Shown here piece by piece: positions 1,519 through 12,620 of a stretch of DNA of 18,543 nucleotides (within the stretch, counting starts at the first letter, position 1; every line of letters begins with the position of its first letter). Origin of the DNA: an uncultured Flavobacteriales bacterium. Its GTDB lineage: Bacteria > Bacteroidota > Bacteroidia > Flavobacteriales > BACL11. Made by a program: the position numbers and the translations under genes. The notes under the pieces were generated by a model. That model was not told the DNA's origin and ran no database searches. It saw only the letters and a program-made list of their open reading frames with translations. The stretch covers positions 1-18,543 of the forward strand of contig CAJWUS010000012.1 in the NCBI GenBank assembly GCA_913047525.1, written 5' to 3'.

Positions 1519-1932
1519 TTAATTATAAATACTCAAAAAATCACCTTCCAAAGTATTTGAATATTGTTTTAAGGGGAGTATGGCAGGGCTCCCAATAGCA
1601 TTTCCATTTTGGTTGAGTAAAAATTTAGATTCACAACAATTACAAATAGCAATAGGTGAGTTGATTGAATCAATTTTAGCACAACTAAGTGATGGCTCAT
1701 AACTACAATTCCTGTCATAGGTTTTATAAGTATTAAAATCCTGCCGATAAACAATAATACCTTTTACGCCTTCATCTTCAATAAATATATAATTACCTAC
1801 CGTTTGTAAATCAGAATGCTCAGGTAAGCTTAAATTGAGGTTGTAATCAACCATTACATTTTGTATGTAATCTTCTTCTTTTTGACATGCAAAAAAAAGC
1901 AAAAAGCAAAGGACTAAAATTCTAATTTTCAT
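1519..1932 (-). CDS. Small lipoprotein with a Rieske-like C-terminal region lacking the His ligands
   Basis: A 137-aa protein with a lipoprotein signal: a short basic start, a hydrophobic core at 5-15 and a lipobox ending FFAC with Cys16 as the expected lipidated residue. The C-terminal half resembles a Rieske fold. DRNCSYEP (73-80) sits where the first Rieske box would be, and CNCCESKF (97-104) followed by GSPAILPLKQY (114-124) resembles the second box CPCHGSxF...GPAxxPLxxY. Both cluster-binding histidines are replaced (Tyr78, Cys100), so a normal 2Fe-2S Rieske cluster is unlikely. Cys76, Cys84, Cys97, Cys99 and Cys100 could form disulfides or an all-Cys metal site. It is monocistronic, between ahcY and the divergent TonB receptor gene. 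The molecular function is unknown; the fold assignment is by motif only. Confidence 0.8.
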   Translation of the reverse strand: MKIRILVLCFLLFFACQKEEDYIQNVMVDYNLNLSLPEHSDLQTVGNYIFIEDEGVKGIIVYRQDFNTYKTYDRNCSYEPSLSCAKIDSINSPIAICNCCESKFLLNQNGNAIGSPAILPLKQYSNTLEGDFLSIYN

Positions 1933-2074: not shown

Positions 2075-5000
2075 ATGTTAAGAAAAATATACTTACTTTT
2101 TGCTACTGTCCTTTTCTCGGCAGTTGCCTTTGCTCAAACGGGTACTTTAAAGGGTACTGTTTTAGATGCTCTCAGTGGGGAAGCAGTTCCTTTTGCTAAT
2201 GTTATTATTGAAAGAAACGGAACCCAAACTGCTGGGACTACAACCGATTTTGATGGGAAATTTACCATTAAACCAATTGAGCCCGGAACTTATACGGTAA
2301 AAGCAACTTTTGTTGGTTATCAAACTTATATGATGACTGGCTTAATTATCTCAGCAAACAAAATTACATTTCAGGATTTAAAGATGTCCTCAGGAATTCA
2401 ACAAGTTCAGGTTGATATTCATGAATATAAAAAACCACTGATTGATCAAGACAATATTACTGGTGAAACAAAAACTGCAGAAGAAATTGTAGCTATGCCA
2501 ACAAGGTCTGTGGCTTCTGTTGCGGCAACTACTGCTGGTATTTACCAAAAGGATGAAGGAGAGTCCTTAAATGTGAGGGGTTCTCGTTCGGATGCAACCG
2601 ACTACTATATTGATGGTATAAAAGTAAGGGGTAGCTTGGGCGTACCACAATCTGCTATTGAGCAAATTACAGTAATGACAGGTGGTTTGCCAGCACAATA
2701 TGGAGATGCAACAGCTGGTATTATTTCCATTACTACAAAGGGTCCTTCCAACAAATTTTATGGAGGGGCTGAGATGGAATCATCTTCTTTATTTGACAAA
2801 TACAACAAAAATATTTTTGGGCTAAATTTATCAGGCCCTATTTTGAAGAAAAGAAATGAGGATGGGGTCAAAGAAAATTCTATTATTGGCTATTTCTTTT
2901 CTGGGGAATTTAGAATGGTGGATGATACGGATCCTTCCGCTATTGGAAATTGGAAAATAAAAGATGATGTACTAGCCGATTTAAAAGCAAATCCTTTTCG
3001 TCCTGCACCAGATGTTTCTGCCGGATTTTTGCAAAATGCAGAATTTGTTCAAATGAAGGATTTGGAAAAAGTACAAGCAAGACAAAATGTAGCACAAAAA
3101 AGAATAAGTGTTTCTGGAAAATTAGATTTTAAACCTGCCAACAATACCTTTTTATCATTAGGTGGAAATTATTACTACAATACAGGACATTCTTACACAA
3201 GAACATATTCTCTTTTCAATTCCAATAATAATGCGCAAAGCATTAGCAATACTTGGCGAGTATTTGGTAAACTAACCCAAAAATTTGGAACCCAAGAAGC
3301 AGATGATGAAGAAAGCGCATCTACCATAAAAAATGCCTTCTTTACCATTCAAGGAGATTATACCAGAAACCAATACAAAACCCAAGATGATTCACATAAT
3401 GAGAATATTTTTGATTATGGTTATGTAGGTAAATTTAAAACCTATAAAGAAAACATATATGATAGAGGTACCATATATGATACAACAGCCGGTCATTATA
3501 TTAGTGGCAATATACATTCTGGTTGGACAGATACACTTTATACCTTTGTAGCTGGTAATCAAAACCCAGATGCTGCCATCTATACTGATAAGTACTATGA
3601 AATGTTCAAGGATTATGGGATGACCTCTTATATTGATGGTTATGGGATGGATGGTGTTATCCGTACGCCACTTGATTTGCAAGGTGTAGGTCTATCCAAT
3701 GGAGTACGATCTTTACCTATCTATTCTCTTTGGTATCCTTTCGGGAGAGAATACAATTATTATGGTTACTCCCAATATTCGCAAACAACATTCAAAGCAT
3801 CTGGTTCTGCCGATATAAAAGACCATGAGTTTTCTTTTGGTATTGAGTACGAACAAAGATCGGATGCTTCATGGGGCGTGAGTCCTGTTGGGCTTTGGGG
3901 GTTGATGAGACTTTTAACAAACAAACACCTTTCTCAATTGGATTTGAGTGATCCACATACTGTATTTGAGAATGGTGATTATACGGTAAATTATGACAGA
4001 CTTTATGTAGCAGAAGACCAATCTGTTTTTGATAGAAATATAAGACTAGAATTAAAAGGAACAGCTGATAATGTAGATTGGATTGATATTGATTCTTATA
4101 GTCCGGACACCTATGATTTGAGTTTGTTTTCTGCTGATGAATTGCTCAATGATGGTGGTTCTTATGTGTCATATTATGGTTACGATTATTTAGGTAATCG
4201 ATACACAAGCCAACCTACATTTGAAGATTTCTTAACCAAAAAAGATAAAAACGGAAATTATACAAGACCTATTGCTGCTTTTCAACCAATTTATACGGCT
4301 GGGTACATACAAGATAAATTTGCCATTGAAGATCTTATTTTCAATGTAGGGATAAGAGTTGACAGGTATGATGCCAACCAATTGGTATTAAAAGATAAAT
4401 ACTTGCTTTATGATACTTATACTGCAAACACTACAAAGGCAAGAGATTTAGGTAGCTTATCTCAATTTGGAGAGGATCATTATGTATATGTGGATGATAT
4501 TGAAAATCCTTCATCAATTGTAGGTTATCGAAATGGAGATACTTGGTATGACCATACCGGTGCTGAAATTTCAAATCCTGATATTTTAATAAATGCTGCT
4601 GGTGGCAAAATAGCTCCTATGGTAAAAAATCCTACTGCTGCAGTAAACGGAGAGTTAAGTACAAATGCTTTCAAAGATTATGATCCACAAACCATCATTA
4701 TGCCAAGAATTGCTTTTTCTTTTCCCATTTCTGATGAGGCACAGTTTTTTGCACACTATGATGTACTTACCCAAAGACCGCCAAGCAGAAGTCGTTTCGA
4801 TCCTACACAATATTATTTCTTGGAGCAAAATATTGGAGGTTTGCTCAACAATCCTGATTTGAAACCTGAAAAGACGGTAGATTATGAAATAGGATTTGCA
4901 CAAACACTTTCTTTAAAATCGGCTTTAACCATTTCTCTTTTCTACAAAGAATTAAGAGATATGATACAAGTAATGAACCTTCCAGGGGCATACCCAGGAA

Positions 5001-5746
5001 GATACATGACTATGCAAAACTTAGATTTTGGAACGGTTAAAGGCTTATCAGTTGCCTTTGATTTAAGAAGAACAAATAATGTAAGCATGACAGCCAACTA
5101 TACTTTGCAATTTGCTGATGGTACTGGCTCTTCTGCTACTTCTGGTTATAGTATAGCCAACACCGAACAACCAAATTTAAGAACCACAACACCCCTTAGT
5201 TTTGACCAACGCCATACCATTTCGCTTTCTGTCGATTATCATTATGGTGCTGGAAAAGATTATAATGGGCCTGTTCTTTTCGGAAAGAAAATATTGCAAA
5301 GAGCAGGCTTTAATGCCATAGTATCTGCCGGATCGGGTACGCCTTATTCTAAACAATCTAATATTACACAGGAGGCAGCTTTTGGAATTCATAAACAAGG
5401 CTCATTAGATGGAACGCTTTATGGCTCTCGTTTGCCATGGCAGTATAGGGTAAGCACCAAAATAAACAAAGAGTTCGAGATAAAATGGAACGACAAGAAG
5501 CGCTCACATGTAAATGTATACTTGCAAATACAAAACCTATTTGACACTAAAAATATTATTAGTGTGTACAGAGCAACAGGTAATCCTGATGATGATGGCT
5601 ACCTTACATCAGCAGCTGCTCAGAACGATATTAATGCAAAAAATGACACCCAATCTTTTATCGATCTATACAGAATAAAAGTGAATAATCCTTCTAATTT
5701 TTCTCTACCAAGGATGATGAACTTAGGATTAACCATTAGTTTCTAA
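2075..5746 (+). CDS. TonB-dependent outer-membrane receptor with CarboxypepD_reg-like N-terminal domain
   Basis: A 1223-aa outer-membrane protein. It has a Sec signal peptide, with probable cleavage after AFA (residue 20). A CarboxypepD_reg-like beta-sandwich (about 22-105) follows, with GTVLDALSGEAVPFANV and the DFDGKF turn. The plug domain spans about 130-224 and includes LNVRGSRSDATDYYIDGIKV (165-184) and an ITVMTGGLPAQYGDATAG stretch. The rest is a beta-barrel ending in a terminal aromatic residue (LTISF), the usual outer-membrane assembly signal. Family members use TonB/ExbBD energy to import large substrates or to work with surface partner proteins. The substrate is not readable here. 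There is no SusD-like partner; instead a 1409-aa secreted protein follows after 10 nt and a PorV-like protein after that, so this is not a standard polysaccharide utilisation locus. The leader is A-rich without a Shine-Dalgarno sequence, as is usual in this phylum. Confidence 0.93.
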   Translation: MLRKIYLLFATVLFSAVAFAQTGTLKGTVLDALSGEAVPFANVIIERNGTQTAGTTTDFDGKFTIKPIEPGTYTVKATFVGYQTYMMTGLIISANKITFQDLKMSSGIQQVQVDIHEYKKPLIDQDNITGETKTAEEIVAMPTRSVASVAATTAGIYQKDEGESLNVRGSRSDATDYYIDGIKVRGSLGVPQSAIEQITVMTGGLPAQYGDATAGIISITTKGPSNKFYGGAEMESSSLFDKYNKNIFGLNLSGPILKKRNEDGVKENSIIGYFFSGEFRMVDDTDPSAIGNWKIKDDVLADLKANPFRPAPDVSAGFLQNAEFVQMKDLEKVQARQNVAQKRISVSGKLDFKPANNTFLSLGGNYYYNTGHSYTRTYSLFNSNNNAQSISNTWRVFGKLTQKFGTQEADDEESASTIKNAFFTIQGDYTRNQYKTQDDSHNENIFDYGYVGKFKTYKENIYDRGTIYDTTAGHYISGNIHSGWTDTLYTFVAGNQNPDAAIYTDKYYEMFKDYGMTSYIDGYGMDGVIRTPLDLQGVGLSNGVRSLPIYSLWYPFGREYNYYGYSQYSQTTFKASGSADIKDHEFSFGIEYEQRSDASWGVSPVGLWGLMRLLTNKHLSQLDLSDPHTVFENGDYTVNYDRLYVAEDQSVFDRNIRLELKGTADNVDWIDIDSYSPDTYDLSLFSADELLNDGGSYVSYYGYDYLGNRYTSQPTFEDFLTKKDKNGNYTRPIAAFQPIYTAGYIQDKFAIEDLIFNVGIRVDRYDANQLVLKDKYLLYDTYTANTTKARDLGSLSQFGEDHYVYVDDIENPSSIVGYRNGDTWYDHTGAEISNPDILINAAGGKIAPMVKNPTAAVNGELSTNAFKDYDPQTIIMPRIAFSFPISDEAQFFAHYDVLTQRPPSRSRFDPTQYYFLEQNIGGLLNNPDLKPEKTVDYEIGFAQTLSLKSALTISLFYKELRDMIQVMNLPGAYPGRYMTMQNLDFGTVKGLSVAFDLRRTNNVSMTANYTLQFADGTGSSATSGYSIANTEQPNLRTTTPLSFDQRHTISLSVDYHYGAGKDYNGPVLFGKKILQRAGFNAIVSAGSGTPYSKQSNITQEAAFGIHKQGSLDGTLYGSRLPWQYRVSTKINKEFEIKWNDKKRSHVNVYLQIQNLFDTKNIISVYRATGNPDDDGYLTSAAAQNDINAKNDTQSFIDLYRIKVNNPSNFSLPRMMNLGLTISF

Positions 5747-5756
5747 TTTAAAAAAA

Positions 5757-8700
5757 ATGAGATTAAAGAAAAATATAACCTTCATGAAAAATAAAATACA
5801 ACAGCTTTTTGCTATTGGGCTTGTACTTATGTATAGCAATCTTGTGGCCAAGGAAAATGTTATTGGGTCAGGGATGAGCACAGTAGTACAAACTAAAATT
5901 GCAGCAACTTGTGCAAAATCTACCTCACAAACGGATTTGAATATAAACAATGTAAGAGCTACTATATTAGGAGGTGGAGATATGTGGTGGGATTTAAATG
6001 ACGCACAATACGAAATACCAAAAGGAAGTATGAAAAATTCCTTATTTGCTGGTGCACTCTGGATTGGAGGCGTAGATGATGGAGGGCAATTAAAAGCAGC
6101 AGCACAAACCTATAGACAGTTTGGTGGTAACGACTTTTGGCCTGGACCTTTAGATGTTACTACCGCTTCAATTACAGATGAGGAGTGTTTGGCTTATAAC
6201 AAGCACTTTAAATTGGAAAGGGCTCAGGTAGATGAGTTTATTGCCCGGCATGTAGATACACAAGACCCAACATACACCATACCAGATGAAATTTTAGACT
6301 GGCCAGCACATGGAGGGCCTGGACAAGATCCATATTTAGCTCCTTTTCATGATTCTAATGGAGACGGTATTTATAATCCTTATGACAATGATTATCCGGA
6401 TTATAATATGACAGGAAATAATGATAATGCCAAAGTTTTTGGCGACCAAACGCTTTGGTGGGTGTTTAATGATAAAGGTGGCATCCATACTGAAACAGAG
6501 GCAGATCCAATTGGTCTGGAAATACACGCCCAAGCATTTGCTTTTGTTGCCGAAAATGAGGTAAATGACATGACTTTCTATAATTATAAAATAATAAACA
6601 GAGCAAATCAGCGCCTAAACGATACTTATTTTGGGCAGTGGGTGGATGCAGATTTGGGTTGGGCTTTTGATGATTATGTAGGTTGTGATGTGGGCTTAGG
6701 GCTAGGCTTTTGCTACAATGGAGATGCAGAAGATGATGGTGCTGAGGGTTATGGTTTTAATCCGCCAGCAATTGGAGTAGATTTTTTCCAAGGTCCAAGA
6801 GCAGATATAAATGATGGAGTAGATAATGACAGAGATGGTTTTATTGACGAAATGGATTCTGTGATTAACCCAGTAACTGGGCTTTGGGAATACACCCAAT
6901 ATGAAGAAATCATCATGTCAAAATTTGTGTATTACAATAATGACGGATCTATGCAAGGAAATCCTAGTACAGGTTCTCATTTTTATAATTATTTAAGAGG
7001 AATTTGGAAGGACAATGTACCTATGACTTATGGAGGAGATGGAAAAGGTGGGGGTCCAGGTGCAACCACAGAAATTTGTAATTTTATGTTCCCTGGCTCT
7101 TCCGATCCAGACATGTATTCCCAATTTGGAGAATGGACAGAAGTAACTGCCGGAAATGTACCTGATGATAGAAGATTCATACAATCTTCTGGACCTTTTA
7201 CCTTAGAGCCAGGTGCTGTTAATTATATTACAGTGGGTGTAATTTGGGCAAGGGCTAATGCAGGCGGAAATACCGCATCCATTGCACTAGTAAAAGTATA
7301 TGATCGTGAGGCGCAAGCATTATTTGACAATAACTTTAATATCCTAAACGGACCTGACGCTCCGGATGTAACAGTGAGGGAATTAGACAAAGAATTAATT
7401 TTTACCCTTTCTAATGGAATATCCTCCAATAATATAGATGAAAGTTATTCAGAGAAAGATCCTTATATCACCAAGCCAGCGAATTTACAATCTAATCCTA
7501 ATTATGAATTTCAGGGCTATTTGGTATACCAACTTATCAATGGAACTACTTCAGTAACCGATTTGGATAATATTGACAAAGCAAGGTTGGTTTTTAGATG
7601 TGATATAAAAGATGATGTGAGCGGTATTGTCAATCAGTATCTCGATCCTATCTTAGGCGTCTTTACCCCAGTAGAGGAAGTAGGAAGTGTGATGAGTTCA
7701 GGTATGAAGGGCTCGGTAGATAATGGCGTTGAATATTCTTTCAAAATTACAGAAGACCGCTTTGCCTTAGGGAATACCCAATTGGTAAATCATAAAACTT
7801 ACCATTATATGGCTATTTCTTATGCCTATAATAGGGCAGAAGAAAATGCAGATCCTTATGATGTAAACCATCCTGATTATGATGGACACAACCAACCTTA
7901 TATTGCAGGGCGTAGAAATATTCAACTCTATAGCGCAATACCTCATTTTACTGAGCCAGAAGCAGGAGGTACTCTGCTTAACTCTTCTTTTGGGGATGGT
8001 GTGAAAATAGAAAGATTAGAAGGAACAGGAAATGGAAATATTCCTTTGGAACTTACAAAAGAAACAGTGGATGAGATTCTTAATTCTTCTTCTCACCGCT
8101 CACTATATCCTATATACAAAAATGGCTTAGGCCCAATTGATGTAAGTGTGGTAGATCCGGTTTCTGTAAAAAAAGGAACTTATATTTTCACTTTGGAAGA
8201 TCCTATCTATACAGGGAATAATATTACCTCTTACGGAAAATGGGTACTAACCAATGAGGCTACCGGAAATGAAGTGGCATCTTCCACCAAACCAATTGAA
8301 GTGGGCTCAGAAAAATTAATATCCAATATTGGTCTTACTATTAAAATTCAGCAAGGGGTAAATCCGGCTGAGGACCCACTCCTTATTTCGAATAATGGTT
8401 TGATTTCTTCCTCCATGGAATTTGAAAATATAAATGACAGATGGCTATCGGGTGTACCAGATAGAGATGATGAGAATGGTTTTTTCTGGGGTCTAAACTG
8501 GATAAGGGCTGGCTCTTATGAAAATCCAGATAATGGCCAATTGAGTGATTACTCTTTTGGTGATGACCCTAATGGAATTTACGAAACAGCTATAGAAAAA
8601 AATATTTCCATTCCTTTTAATAACTTTACTTATGGAGGTGGGGTCTTTGATTTTTCCTTAGACTACTCAGGAGGCACCTGGGCACCTTATCATTTAGCTT

Positions 8701-9986
8701 CTGCTTTCAAGGATGGTCCTGGTTATAGCTTGTCCACTACTAATCAGGTTAAAATGGCTGATTTGCATTCAGTAGATATTGTATTTACAGACGATAAATC
8801 TGAATGGTCGAAATGCGTGGTGGTTGAAGCACAAGATGATGATTTGCTTTCAGTTGGAGGGCAAACCAAAATGGGCTTACGCTTAACCCCATCAGTTGAT
8901 AAAAACGGCAACCCTTTAAATGATGGAACTATGGGTATGGGCTGGTTCCCTGGTTATGCCATTAATTTGGAAACTGGAGAAAGATTGAATATTATTTTTG
9001 CAGAGGATTCTTACCTTACTGAGGATAACGGAAGGGATTTGAAATGGAACCCTACTTCAAATATTGTAACGGATGAGGCCCCGCTATACGATATAGATAA
9101 CGACACTTATCACCAAGGAAGTTACTTGCTTGGCGGGAAGCATTTTGTTTATGTAATCAATGGTTCGGCTGATGTAGTGAAAGATAGCACTTACATTGAT
9201 GGTACAGTTAGTCCAAACTATGACGAATGTGCTTGGATTTACAACCAACTTAAAAATTATACTTCACCTGGTTATACTGCTAATATTTGGCAAGTATTCC
9301 GTAATGCTTCTTGGGTAGGTATGCCGATATTAGCTCCTGGAAGAAGCTTGCTTGCTAATGATGTAACTGTAAAACTTAGTGTAAGCAAACCCTACAATCA
9401 ATACGTAACTAGAAATGCTTCAGCAATACTAGATAAAAATGACGATTTGATTTTAGGAACAACTTATTTTGTAATGGGGGCAACCCTTAACCATAATGGA
9501 AGCCAATACGCGCCTGGCGATACTTTTACAGCTGTGAGTACTTCTTTTTCAGGAAGCAATAATGCAAGAGCCATTAGCCCAATTCCAGAAAATGATTTTA
9601 GCCCAATGTACCGATTCTCTACAGATGATATTGTTGCGGAAAAAGGAGATCATAAAACTGCTGTAAATGCCCTGGATATGATAAATGTAGTGCCTAATCC
9701 GTATTACGCTTTTTCCACTTACGAAACATCACAGCTTGATAACAGAATGAAAATCACCAACCTTCCTACAAGAGCAACAATCTCTATTTATACTATTAGT
9801 GGAACTTTGGTACGACAATTGAAAAAGGATGATGCGTTTACATTTATCGATTGGGATTTGAAAAACACTTTCGGGATTCCGGTTGCATCTGGCCTTTATG
9901 TAATACATGTTGATGCAAAAGGAGTTGGAGAAAAAGTACTGAAATGGTTTGGTGTAATGCGTCCTGTTGACCTGGATACTTTCTAA
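5757..9986 (+). CDS. Large secreted protein with calcium-binding-like motifs and a T9SS-like C-terminal domain
   Basis: A 1409-aa protein of no function known to me. The ATG at 5757 is 10 nt after the receptor stop. A second in-frame ATG at 5784 (Met10) gives a more typical signal peptide, with cleavage near residue 31, so either start may be used. The N-terminal region carries GGGDMWWDL (72-80), FAGALWIGG (97-105) and NDFWPGPL (125-132), block motifs I recall from long Bacteroidota surface proteins. Two Asp/Asn-rich loops, DSNGDGIYNPYDND (from 199) and NDGVDNDRDGFIDE (from 352), look like thrombospondin-3- or EF-hand-type calcium sites. The last ~100 residues resemble a T9SS sorting domain: VVPNP (about 1311), SIYTISGTLVRQL, then WDLKNTFGIPVASGLYVIHV. 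It ends in KWFGVMRPVDLDTF rather than the usual short basic tail. Predicted to be exported and displayed on the surface with the flanking receptor and PorV-like protein. Confidence 0.85.
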   Translation: MRLKKNITFMKNKIQQLFAIGLVLMYSNLVAKENVIGSGMSTVVQTKIAATCAKSTSQTDLNINNVRATILGGGDMWWDLNDAQYEIPKGSMKNSLFAGALWIGGVDDGGQLKAAAQTYRQFGGNDFWPGPLDVTTASITDEECLAYNKHFKLERAQVDEFIARHVDTQDPTYTIPDEILDWPAHGGPGQDPYLAPFHDSNGDGIYNPYDNDYPDYNMTGNNDNAKVFGDQTLWWVFNDKGGIHTETEADPIGLEIHAQAFAFVAENEVNDMTFYNYKIINRANQRLNDTYFGQWVDADLGWAFDDYVGCDVGLGLGFCYNGDAEDDGAEGYGFNPPAIGVDFFQGPRADINDGVDNDRDGFIDEMDSVINPVTGLWEYTQYEEIIMSKFVYYNNDGSMQGNPSTGSHFYNYLRGIWKDNVPMTYGGDGKGGGPGATTEICNFMFPGSSDPDMYSQFGEWTEVTAGNVPDDRRFIQSSGPFTLEPGAVNYITVGVIWARANAGGNTASIALVKVYDREAQALFDNNFNILNGPDAPDVTVRELDKELIFTLSNGISSNNIDESYSEKDPYITKPANLQSNPNYEFQGYLVYQLINGTTSVTDLDNIDKARLVFRCDIKDDVSGIVNQYLDPILGVFTPVEEVGSVMSSGMKGSVDNGVEYSFKITEDRFALGNTQLVNHKTYHYMAISYAYNRAEENADPYDVNHPDYDGHNQPYIAGRRNIQLYSAIPHFTEPEAGGTLLNSSFGDGVKIERLEGTGNGNIPLELTKETVDEILNSSSHRSLYPIYKNGLGPIDVSVVDPVSVKKGTYIFTLEDPIYTGNNITSYGKWVLTNEATGNEVASSTKPIEVGSEKLISNIGLTIKIQQGVNPAEDPLLISNNGLISSSMEFENINDRWLSGVPDRDDENGFFWGLNWIRAGSYENPDNGQLSDYSFGDDPNGIYETAIEKNISIPFNNFTYGGGVFDFSLDYSGGTWAPYHLASAFKDGPGYSLSTTNQVKMADLHSVDIVFTDDKSEWSKCVVVEAQDDDLLSVGGQTKMGLRLTPSVDKNGNPLNDGTMGMGWFPGYAINLETGERLNIIFAEDSYLTEDNGRDLKWNPTSNIVTDEAPLYDIDNDTYHQGSYLLGGKHFVYVINGSADVVKDSTYIDGTVSPNYDECAWIYNQLKNYTSPGYTANIWQVFRNASWVGMPILAPGRSLLANDVTVKLSVSKPYNQYVTRNASAILDKNDDLILGTTYFVMGATLNHNGSQYAPGDTFTAVSTSFSGSNNARAISPIPENDFSPMYRFSTDDIVAEKGDHKTAVNALDMINVVPNPYYAFSTYETSQLDNRMKITNLPTRATISIYTISGTLVRQLKKDDAFTFIDWDLKNTFGIPVASGLYVIHVDAKGVGEKVLKWFGVMRPVDLDTF

Positions 9987-9998
9987 ATTATAGATAAA

Positions 9999-11072
9999 AT
10001 GAATACTACTGAAATGAAAAAAATAAATAATTGGCTTAAAGCCTTTCTAATTGTAGCACTTATTGTACTTCCTGTGAAAGATAATTTTGCGGGTAATGAG
10101 CAAAGAGCCGGACAAGCAGGCGCTTCCGAATTACTAATCAACCCTTGGGCGAGAAGTTCAGGTTGGGCAGGGGCAAATGTGGCCTGTGTTAGAGGCTTAG
10201 AAGGGATGTTCAACAATGTAGCGGGTTTGGCCTTTACTAATAAAACAGAGCTTATTTTCTCTCGTACCAATTGGCTAATGTATAACGATAATGAGGCAGT
10301 AAGTTATATCAACTCTTTTGGGTTCTCACAAAAAGTAGGTGAGTCAGGTGTATTAGCACTTGGCATTATGTCCTTAGATTTTGGAGATATTGAAATTACA
10401 ACTGAGGAACTTCCTGATGGAGGAATTGGTACGTTTTCTCCTAAGTATATGAACATTGGTCTTTCCTATGCGAAAACATTTTCTAATAGTATTTATGGTG
10501 GCTTTACCATTAAAATGATTTCCGAACAAATTTCAAATGTTCGAGCTGGAGGAGTGGCTTTTGATGCGGGTATTCAATATGTAACTGGTGCTAAAGATAA
10601 TTTGAAATTTGGTATATCCTTAAAAAATATTGGCCCAAGAATGAGTTTTTCTGGTGATGGGCTTTCATTTAGAGATTATGTAAATCCTAATTATGAAACG
10701 GCGGTAAATCATAAATCTGCTGAGTTTGAATTGCCATCATTGCTGAATATTGGGCTTGCATACGATATTCTTTATTTAAGACACCGACTAACAGGTTCAG
10801 GAACTTTTACTTCCAATGCTTTTCAGAAAGACCAATACCGATTGGGTTGTGAGTATTCTTTTCGAGATATGTTTATGATAAGGTGTGGTTACACTTTAGA
10901 AGAAGGATTAAGAACGCCATCTACCAGAACTACTGCTTTAAGAGGGCCAAGTGGAGGTTTCACTATTGAAATACCAATGGGTGGCGGGAAAACTTTTGGT
11001 GTAGATTATTCCTACCGACATACCGATCCTTTCCAGGGGTCGCACACACTTGGCGCCAGAATAAACCTCTAA
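9999..11072 (+). CDS. PorV/PorQ-family outer-membrane beta-barrel protein
   Basis: A 357-aa protein that begins 12 nt after the preceding stop and ends the trio. It has a basic, hydrophobic signal peptide (Met6 at 10014 is an alternative start), with mature sequence from about residue 32. The PorV/PorQ signature is ASELLINPWARSSGWAGAN, then VRGLEGMFNNVAGLA, near the mature N-terminus, where conserved Asn/Gly residues precede a FadL-like barrel of alternating strands. In the family, PorV (LptO) carries T9SS cargo from the translocon to the attachment machinery, and PorQ has a related role. Because it is linked to a T9SS-like cargo rather than to por/gld genes, this copy is probably a dedicated paralogue rather than the general PorV; that is inference. 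The barrel ends in INL without a terminal Phe. Confidence 0.85.
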   Translation: MNTTEMKKINNWLKAFLIVALIVLPVKDNFAGNEQRAGQAGASELLINPWARSSGWAGANVACVRGLEGMFNNVAGLAFTNKTELIFSRTNWLMYNDNEAVSYINSFGFSQKVGESGVLALGIMSLDFGDIEITTEELPDGGIGTFSPKYMNIGLSYAKTFSNSIYGGFTIKMISEQISNVRAGGVAFDAGIQYVTGAKDNLKFGISLKNIGPRMSFSGDGLSFRDYVNPNYETAVNHKSAEFELPSLLNIGLAYDILYLRHRLTGSGTFTSNAFQKDQYRLGCEYSFRDMFMIRCGYTLEEGLRTPSTRTTALRGPSGGFTIEIPMGGGKTFGVDYSYRHTDPFQGSHTLGARINL

Positions 11073-11136: not shown

Positions 11137-11610
11137 ATGAATGAGATAAAATATTTTACTGAACAAGGGCTACAAAATTTGAAAGATGAGCTAAATCATC
11201 TGAAAAATGTAGAACGTCCAAATATTACCAAAGAGATTTCGGAGGCAAGAGATAAAGGTGATTTATCAGAAAATGCAGAATATGATGCGGCAAAAGAAGC
11301 CCAAGGAATGCTGGAGGCAAAAATTGCAAAACTAGAAGAGCAATTAAGTCAAGCAAGGGTGCTAGATGAAAGTGAATTAGACACTTCCTCTGTGCATTTA
11401 CTTACTAAAGTAATTATCAAAAATACTAAAAATGATACCGAGCTAACTTATACCATTGTGCCAGAATCGGAAGCGGATTTGATGGCCAAAAAGATTTCGG
11501 TAGAATCGCCCATTGCACAAGGATTATTGGGTAAAAAGGTAGGGGAAATTGCAGAAATAGAAGTTCCAAGTGGAATTATGAAATTTGAAATCATAGCCAT
11601 AACGACTTAA
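11137..11610 (+). CDS. greA: Transcription elongation factor GreA
   Basis: GreA binds RNA polymerase in the secondary channel and stimulates cleavage of backtracked transcripts. The 157-aa length is standard. The N-terminal coiled-coil hairpin covers about 1-75, and its tip carries DKGDLSENAEYDAAKE (39-54), including the acidic pair Asp42 and Glu45, equivalent to E. coli Asp41 and Glu44. The C-terminal FKBP-like domain contains SPIAQGLLGKKVGE and ends with a KFEI strand. The ATG at 11137 gives the normal family start. A HIT-domain gene follows after 3 nt, so the two are almost certainly co-transcribed. Confidence 0.97.
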   Translation: MNEIKYFTEQGLQNLKDELNHLKNVERPNITKEISEARDKGDLSENAEYDAAKEAQGMLEAKIAKLEEQLSQARVLDESELDTSSVHLLTKVIIKNTKNDTELTYTIVPESEADLMAKKISVESPIAQGLLGKKVGEIAEIEVPSGIMKFEIIAITT

Positions 11611-11613
11611 ACA

Positions 11614-12006
11614 ATGTCAAGTATTTTTACCAAAATAGTTAAAGGTGATATTCCTGCATATAAAGTTGCAGAAGACGAAAGGTTTTTGGCATTTCTCGAT
11701 ATTTTCCCTCTTGCAAAAGGACATCTGCTTGTCATTCCTAAAAAAGAAACCGATTATATTTTTGATTTAGAATCTAAAGAGTTTATGGGGCTTTGGAGTT
11801 TTACTCAATTGGTAGCCAAAGCAATGGAAAAAGTCATAGCATGCGAAAGAATAGGGGTAGCTGTTATTGGATTGGAAGTACCCCATGCTCATATTCATCT
11901 GGTACCATTAAAAAACATGACTAACATCAATTTTGAAAAACCAAAACTTAAATTTTCTCCTGAAGAATTTGAGGAAATTGCCCAAAAAATAAGGAAAGAA
12001 ATTTAG
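11614..12006 (+). CDS. HIT (histidine triad) family nucleotide-binding protein
   Basis: A 130-aa cytosolic protein of the HIT superfamily, typically nucleoside phosphoramidases or nucleotide hydrolases acting on AMP-linked substrates. It has the N-terminal SIFTKIVKGDIPAYKVAED strand-helix, the FLDIFPLAKGHLLVIPK segment, and the active-site triad HAHIHLVPL with His91, His93 and His95. The Gln that often precedes the triad in Hint proteins (GQxVxHxHxH) is replaced here: GLEVPHAHIH. The start lies 3 nt after the greA stop. The physiological substrate cannot be read from the sequence. Confidence 0.93.
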   Translation: MSSIFTKIVKGDIPAYKVAEDERFLAFLDIFPLAKGHLLVIPKKETDYIFDLESKEFMGLWSFTQLVAKAMEKVIACERIGVAVIGLEVPHAHIHLVPLKNMTNINFEKPKLKFSPEEFEEIAQKIRKEI

Positions 12007-12068
12007 AAGTCAGGAACCAGTAGACAGCATTAAGAATACAGCAGAAAGATAAATTTCAAACCCAACAA

Positions 12069-12620
12069 CTATTTCAGTCTATCCGGATTATCTTTTACAA
12101 AAGCTTTCCATCCAGTATAACTTTTTCCTTTCTCTGCTGTATCCCCCTGAAAAAAATGACAAACTGCAGCAGCCAATCCATCAGTGGCGTCTAAATGTTT
12201 TGGTATTTCTTTTATTGTCAATAATGATTTTAGCATAGCAGCTACTTGTTCTTTAGAAGCATTTCCGTTTCCTGTAATGGCCTTTTTTATTTTCTTGGGG
12301 CTGTATTCAAAAATAGGAATATCTCTGTAAAGCCCAGCTGCCATTGCAACTCCTTGTGCTCTTCCCAACTTTAACATGGATTGCACATTTTTCCCAAAAA
12401 ATGGGGCTTCTACCGCCAACTCATCTGGTTTGTACTCATCTATCATAGCCAATGTTCGTTCAAATATTCGCTTTAGTTTCAGTTCATGAGAGCTCAATTT
12501 AGACAAATGCAAAATGCCCATTTGCAATAGTTCCATTTTCTTTCCTTCAATTTGGATAAGTCCATAACCCATAATGGTAGTTCCTGGGTCAATTCCTAAT
12601 ATAATTTTATCTATCGGCAA
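12069..12620 (-). CDS. ruvC: Crossover junction endodeoxyribonuclease RuvC
   Basis: RuvC resolves Holliday junctions together with RuvAB by paired, metal-dependent nicking. The 183-aa protein has the RNase H-like core: [14 protein letters not shown] with Asp11, [22 protein letters not shown] with Glu71, and [12 protein letters not shown] with Asp144 and Asp147. These match the four E. coli acidic residues (7, 66, 138, 141) in order and spacing. The start is a TTG at 12620-12618. An in-frame TAA lies two codons upstream and no ATG occurs before the conserved ILGIDPG, so a non-ATG start is required. It diverges from the flippase gene across 39 nt. No ruvA or ruvB is adjacent. Confidence 0.96.

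Follow-up and report, generated by a model that had tools for sequence, protein, structure and literature searches.

The closest described relatives of the locus presented here are surface complexes in which a protein exported by the type IX secretion system (T9SS) is held by an outer-membrane barrel, together with the SusCD glycan importers. In the attachment complex of the T9SS, PorQ is the barrel that holds PorZ, and PorV the one that holds PorU, as set out in PMC5562754, and type B cargos have cognate barrels of the PorP/SprF kind encoded directly downstream, according to a 2025 paper (PMC12618676). Such cognate barrels may shield the C-terminal domains (CTDs) of cargos from cleavage, as put forward in a review (PMC10202324). 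The locus encodes a TonB-dependent receptor (TBDR), a giant secreted protein and a PorV/PorQ-family barrel, and it resembles each of these systems in part. With PorZ–PorQ and PorU–PorV it shares a T9SS-exported surface protein, a type A-fold CTD and, by the analogy that we propose, a PorV-family barrel as anchor (PMC5562754, PMC10202324); the attachment complex, however, is without a TBDR, has other passenger domains and comes as one set per T9SS, whereas several versions of the unit described here are found in deep-branching genomes. In the type B systems, such as SprB–SprF, the gene of the cognate barrel likewise follows the cargo gene directly, with stoichiometric pairing as reported in PMC12618676 and PMC9143113, but the triplet has a type A-fold CTD, a barrel of the PorV/PorQ family and a TBDR as a fixed third member. 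As in SusCD, there is a TBDR with a carboxypeptidase-like N-terminal domain and a surface-exposed partner (predicted, for the giant) from the same gene cluster; unlike SusCD, the triplet lacks SusD, and the partner has a Sec signal-like N terminus, a T9SS CTD and a barrel besides. The Bacteroidota BAM complex was also considered as a home for the unit and dropped: the subunits reported to co-purify with BAM in F. johnsoniae came without T9SS components (PMC12611786).

The window, that is, the whole stretch of 18,543 nucleotides analysed, carries the following features.

1519..1932, minus strand: divergent small lipoprotein of a degenerate Rieske-like family, a conserved neighbour and only a candidate for membership of the unit
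2075..5746, plus strand: TBDR of 1223 aa with an N-terminal carboxypeptidase-regulatory-like domain (open reading frame; CarboxypepD_reg, Plug and barrel above the Pfam cut-offs)
5757..9986, plus strand: giant T9SS-type secreted protein of 1409 aa (open reading frame; relatives)
5907..7343, plus strand: giant residues ~51-529, supersandwich domain plus the helix after it, resembling the N-terminal part of GH15/65/94/116 enzymes (fold match)
7344..9656, plus strand: giant residues ~530-1300, further beta-rich domains (structure models)
9657..9962, plus strand: giant residues ~1301-1402, T9SS-type CTD of the triplet subclass
9963..9983, plus strand: short C-terminal tail behind the giant's CTD (conservation in nearer relatives)
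9999..11072, plus strand: PorV/PorQ-family outer-membrane barrel of 357 aa, a dedicated paralogue (PorV_fam score; clade of giant-triplet barrels)

The preliminary description had placed three genes on one strand, in the order TBDR, T9SS-like cargo and PorV/PorQ paralogue, with no SusD. The open reading frames confirm all three genes, with gaps of 10 and 12 nt counted from the first possible start codons; the domain models and the fold model of the CTD agree with the order of functions, and no SusD family appeared in the ten window proteins scanned with Pfam. The consensus of the giant family suggests that the usual start lies 9 codons further in, in which case the gap between TBDR and giant would be 37 nt. 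The triplet is flanked upstream by adenosylhomocysteinase and the small divergent lipoprotein and downstream by GreA, a HIT protein and RuvC.

We propose that the products of the three genes would form one outer-membrane surface complex. The T9SS would export the giant, whose CTD would escape cleavage and remain attached to the PorV-like barrel encoded with it, in the manner of PorZ on PorQ and PorU on PorV; the giant would thereby be tethered at the cell surface next to the TBDR. There its beta-rich body, with the supersandwich domain, may capture or position a ligand, probably glycan-like, for TonB-driven import: the overall working would be that of SusCD, with a T9SS protein on its own barrel in place of the SusD lipoprotein. 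For the whole of this reading, a barrel-anchored extracellular giant serving a TBDR in import, our estimate is a probability of roughly 50%. That the barrel is the cognate anchor or shuttle of the giant is distinctly probable, while the import of a glycan-like ligand by the TBDR unit has, in our judgement, an even chance; retention of the CTD by the barrel, contact between giant and TBDR and import as the purpose are what we infer from the comparisons below.

The triplet is a conserved unit across much of the phylum, far beyond chance, and of this we are very nearly certain. Of 7990 candidates scored against the giant, 6613 are relatives at E <= 1e-3, and a scan of species genomes found at least 573 relatives among at least 588 matched stretches. 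Among the best 80 of these loci, 74 keep the order TBDR–giant–barrel on the same strand (split or run-off genes counted), two (L027 and L037) lose one partner at a contig end, and four (L024, L025, L040 and L044) are orphan giants with neither TBDR nor barrel adjacent. In three of the four orphan-giant genomes a complete triplet lies on a different contig, and the orphan may use its barrel as well; in the fourth, G393, neither such a barrel nor a close TBDR was found. The gaps are short, with medians of 25 and 26.5 nt in 64 complete triplets.

Among 392 genomes drawn from the phylum, 202 have some match to the giant and 42 a strong one (E <= 1e-40). Twenty genomes with strong matches were extended, seven from the same class and 13 from further away, and in 19 of these distant loci all three genes stand in order; in the twentieth, the contig ends inside the giant. 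The search for conserved gene order across Bacteroidota, which the preliminary description had set beforehand as its check, thus came out in favour of the triplet. SprA, the T9SS translocon, is present in 320 of the 392 genomes and, when the genome lists were compared by eye, in all 202 with a giant match; as the weak matches may rest on the CTD alone, this co-presence is most informative for the 42. Environmental Bacteroidota genomes commonly contain the giant, and its spread is patchy: one family (f3) of the window's own order has five weak giant matches listed and no strong one.

The window TBDR scores 62.1 bits for CarboxypepD_reg, 39.7 for Plug and 53.5 for the barrel, all above the Pfam cut-offs, and so has the carboxypeptidase-regulatory-like domain of a SusC-like TBDR. 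A sequence search against solved structures gave three matches for it, of which two concern small domains from SusC-like or TonB-dependent receptors. Reliance on SusD can be judged from the 11 giant-bearing genomes that were searched with the Pfam model SusD_RagB. No match was found in G001, the nearest genome to the window among those compared, or in G322, and both have the unit, which bears out the earlier claim that it does without SusD: the unit does not depend on SusD. In two further genomes the SusD_RagB matches are fewer than the triplets with cargos other than the giant: one against five in G384, and two (adjacent, on one contig) against seven in G302, six of the latter found by rule and one by hand. 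Other counts are seven in G031, two in G184, three each in G019 and G074 and one in G046, with 13 and 27 in the Bacteroidia genomes G065 and G179. That the unit actually replaces SusD is a guess on our part, from few genomes and one Pfam model.

The arrangement is not confined to the giant. Most other PorV-family genes of G031 follow a different CTD-bearing protein, itself placed after a TBDR. Among 57 further PorV-family members from seven deep-branching genomes, giants excluded, 25 belong by rule to TBDR–cargo–barrel triplets, 11 to cargo–barrel pairs and four to TBDR–barrel pairs, and 17 to neither; these counts are to be read with the fact that the CTD detector had genes near PorV as its training set and is biased towards cargos in that position. 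The scan left out canonical PorV (except in G031), the tandem PorV-family pair L175 and two weak matches in G031, and other matches below threshold. Four triplets that failed the spacing rule (L172, L213, L241 and L245) were added by hand, which brings the total to 29, for the tree, the distances and the CTD profiles. The same rule found no triplet among 17 members from seven Bacteroidia genomes. Of ten sampled cargos, nine match the NCBIfam PorZ model in its C-terminal region, at 20-32 bits and far below the whole-protein cut-off of 260, and three of these nine also exceed the type A CTD cut-off; the tenth, L163, matches neither model. All nine sampled receptors carry the carboxypeptidase-regulatory-like domain, with plug or barrel as well in eight.

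One family of triplets with a cargo other than the giant is present in five deep genomes (L163, L209, L219, L227 and L234); its cargo of 1132-1160 aa has a faint match to the first domain of the giant, and another CTD-bearing open reading frame precedes its TBDR. At L170, L229 and L236 the barrel directly follows the TBDR with no cargo between them, and the regions of L170 and L229 also hold a protein with a CTD of the triplet subclass.

The giant has no Pfam family above cut-off and no PHROGs match, it is absent from the matches of the NCBIfam PorZ model, and neither giant nor barrel has a match at E <= 1 in a sequence search of solved structures. Among the 120 relatives listed, identity to the giant is 59-100%, and their names go no further in function than hypothetical protein or T9SS sorting-domain protein. 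Against the type A sorting domain model TIGR04183 the giant scores 20.6 bits, below the curated cut-off of 23. The structure alignments used 56 of 75 rows, the 75 being the window, 64 nearer sequences and ten distant ones. The C terminus is modelled as an Ig-like beta-sandwich (pLDDT 89) that matches the CTDs of PorZ and PorU; these are its closest CTD folds, ahead of RemA and NucA, a lead owed in part to the shorter chains of the latter two. The first domain is modelled as a supersandwich, the fold of the N-terminal part of GH15, GH65, GH94 and GH116 enzymes, with 6-14% identity among the 50 matches listed. With these enzymes it shares the fold of the domain and of the helix that follows, but the match stops before their catalytic helical barrel: the listed matches end at about residue 528, where the giant's model continues as beta structure, and the catalytic half of the sugar enzymes, an (alpha/alpha)6 barrel, has no counterpart in them. 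A shared supersandwich, in a predicted model, does not by itself show a function. For residues ~530-1300, whole-model searches gave no clear match, an absence that is no evidence of a new fold.

Conservation is uneven along the protein. In groups of 47, 6 and 4 sequences, identity to the window giant is 0.62, 0.53 and 0.47 in the CTD, 0.57, 0.43 and 0.42 in the first domain and 0.39, 0.31 and 0.19 in the middle region; the CTD is thus the best conserved large region in every group beyond the closest relatives. Among the 17 nearest giants the first domain (0.74) and the region after it (0.73) stand above the CTD (0.69). The short tail is kept in nearer relatives (0.83 in the 17 and 0.70 in the 47), with only 0.17 and 0.29 in the distant groups of six and four.

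PorZ as the nearest CTD by fold raises the prospect that the unit is an accessory complex of the envelope or of the T9SS, handling LPS, capsule or another surface polymer, or aiding secretion in the way of PorQ–PorZ with A-LPS, the TBDR then being an energised gate and not a food importer. PorZ works with A-LPS as described in PMC5562754; identity of at least 59% among the 120 relatives listed, the frequent proximity of the giant to housekeeping genes (greA at 66 of 87 loci) and its retention in the nearest compared genome, of about 2 Mb, would all suit such a role. Yet the canonical T9SS genes are present as well, the giant is missing or weak in most genomes with SprA (42 strong matches against 320), and several versions that differ in cargo are present in deep genomes; we regard this explanation as unlikely, though deserving of attention.

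A second explanation concerns the barrel. Were the giant an ordinary T9SS cargo, the general PorV would hand it on, PorU would cut its CTD and the neighbouring barrel would be a general shuttle or a porin. The type A fold of the CTD fits this, as does the statement of the 2025 paper that type A CTDs all use PorV (PMC12618676). The barrel, however, belongs to the family without being its canonical member: it scores 139.1 bits against PorV_fam (NF033709; cut-off 90) and falls short of the equivalog cut-offs of PorV (NF033710; 65.6 against 250), PorQ (NF033711; 72.2 against 220) and PorV2 (30.5 against 325). All 15 giant-bearing genomes examined have a much better PorV match elsewhere (320-418 bits), within a total of 4-18 PorV-family matches per genome. 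In the compared genomes canonical PorV was set by score rank and PorU by size and position before PorV; on these grounds we take the 1120-aa gene before the best PorV in G001 to be PorU.

In a tree of 109 PorV-family proteins (a quick tree without bootstrap), the barrels of giants form one clade (SH-aLRT 99), which includes L250, a barrel cut off at a contig end of G046, a genome in which the giant is split over contigs. The barrels of other triplets and of three TBDR–barrel loci form an adjoining clade (SH-aLRT 94), and the two are jointly set apart (SH-aLRT 96) from canonical PorV, the remaining members and the fourth TBDR–barrel locus, L238. The separate clade and the far better PorV elsewhere sustain the preliminary description in one part and correct it in another: the barrel is a dedicated paralogue, but a PorV-like barrel dedicated to a cargo is not unprecedented, given PorZ–PorQ, PorU–PorV and type B cargos with PorP/SprF.

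The CTDs divide in the same manner. With profiles from which the genome in question was held out, 28 of 28 triplet CTDs were assigned to the triplets, and 33 of the 35 other CTDs to the non-triplet group; the remaining two lie in L170 and L229, loci scored as TBDR–barrel without cargo. BLAST sorts the cargo bodies into three families, and with a whole family held out the triplet profile still wins 28 of 28. These tests covered 28 of 36 triplet cargos; the filter dropped seven giants and L172, and the giants were therefore scored separately: models trained without giants gave preference to the triplet profile in 84 of 84 cases (83 giants and L172), and the window giant's CTD reaches 84.3 bits with the triplet profile against 26.9 with the other. 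The sorting signal itself therefore goes with the private barrel.

The three genes also share their descent. Across 35 triplets from seven genomes (29 with other cargos and six with giants; L126 was left out, its TBDR being split into two open reading frames), pairwise distances correlate at r = 0.964 for TBDR and cargo, 0.939 for TBDR and barrel, 0.925 for cargo and barrel and 0.818 for the cargo CTD and barrel. When partners were shuffled within genomes, the mean r was 0.035-0.054, and for every pair the observed value was reached in 0 of 2000 shuffles; for 16 of the 35 triplets, TBDR, cargo and barrel all find their nearest relative from another genome in one and the same triplet. Paralogous triplets thus keep their partners unswapped, part of which is explained by physical linkage, and contact between the proteins is not implied. 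A separate barrel clade with its own CTD subclass, inherited together, and a slowly evolving CTD all weigh against an ordinary cargo, which we consider improbable.

TBDR-linked secretion of proteins has been reported in myxobacteria. On that model the TBDR would serve export and not import, assisting either the release of the giant or its product from the cell or folding at the surface; since the CTD and the conserved SprA already provide an export route, we rate this as rather more improbable still. That the genes are neighbours by inheritance only, without joint function, has next to no chance: greA, HIT, ruvC and adenosylhomocysteinase genes are recurrent neighbours too (66, 63, 39 and 33 of 87 loci), but the triplet is kept in distant genomes and reappears with other cargos, and its paralogues keep their partners, which contradicts it.

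Against the proposal of a barrel-anchored giant serving a TBDR in import stand the missed type A CTD cut-off, the four of the best 80 giants without adjacent partners and the four TBDR–barrel loci without cargo. More broadly, we tentatively suggest, at somewhat less than even odds, that a class of TonB-dependent uptake machines exists alongside SusCD, with SusD's place taken by a T9SS protein that has its own CTD subclass and its own PorV-family barrel; the class would have diversified its cargos in deep branches and been reduced to a single, highly conserved giant in Bacteroidia, SusCD having become the main route there. The novelty lies in the type A-like subclass of CTDs, in the TBDR as a fixed member and in the spread of paralogues, and a literature search (titles and abstract starts of open-licence papers, preprints excluded) found no paper on the triplet. 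If the proposal is true, a PorV-family barrel can be private to a cargo whose CTD has the type A fold, in contrast to the one shared PorV described in PMC12618676, and the T9SS can build TonB-dependent surface machines. This opens the questions of how barrels and CTDs are paired and of how SusD-poor Bacteroidota acquire food.

Some observations concern the surroundings of the triplet. At L077 a second giant (14533-18645) lies between barrel and greA, with a C terminus unlike the usual conserved ending, and at L128 parts of a second TBDR and giant adjoin a full triplet, likely as a tandem copy. The window's flanks at 1-1300 and 11137-12620 hold a recurrent and long-kept neighbourhood, the greA, HIT, ruvC and adenosylhomocysteinase genes of the counts given above. 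At some of the positions that we take to be the usual iron-ligand histidines of the Rieske motif, the window's small lipoprotein has other residues; the Pfam Rieske model is above cut-off in two of four relatives tested. The Rieske-like lipoprotein is a possible fourth member of the unit: it has a relative in 41 of 87 loci, and in all 41 this lies upstream of the TBDR and divergent from it.
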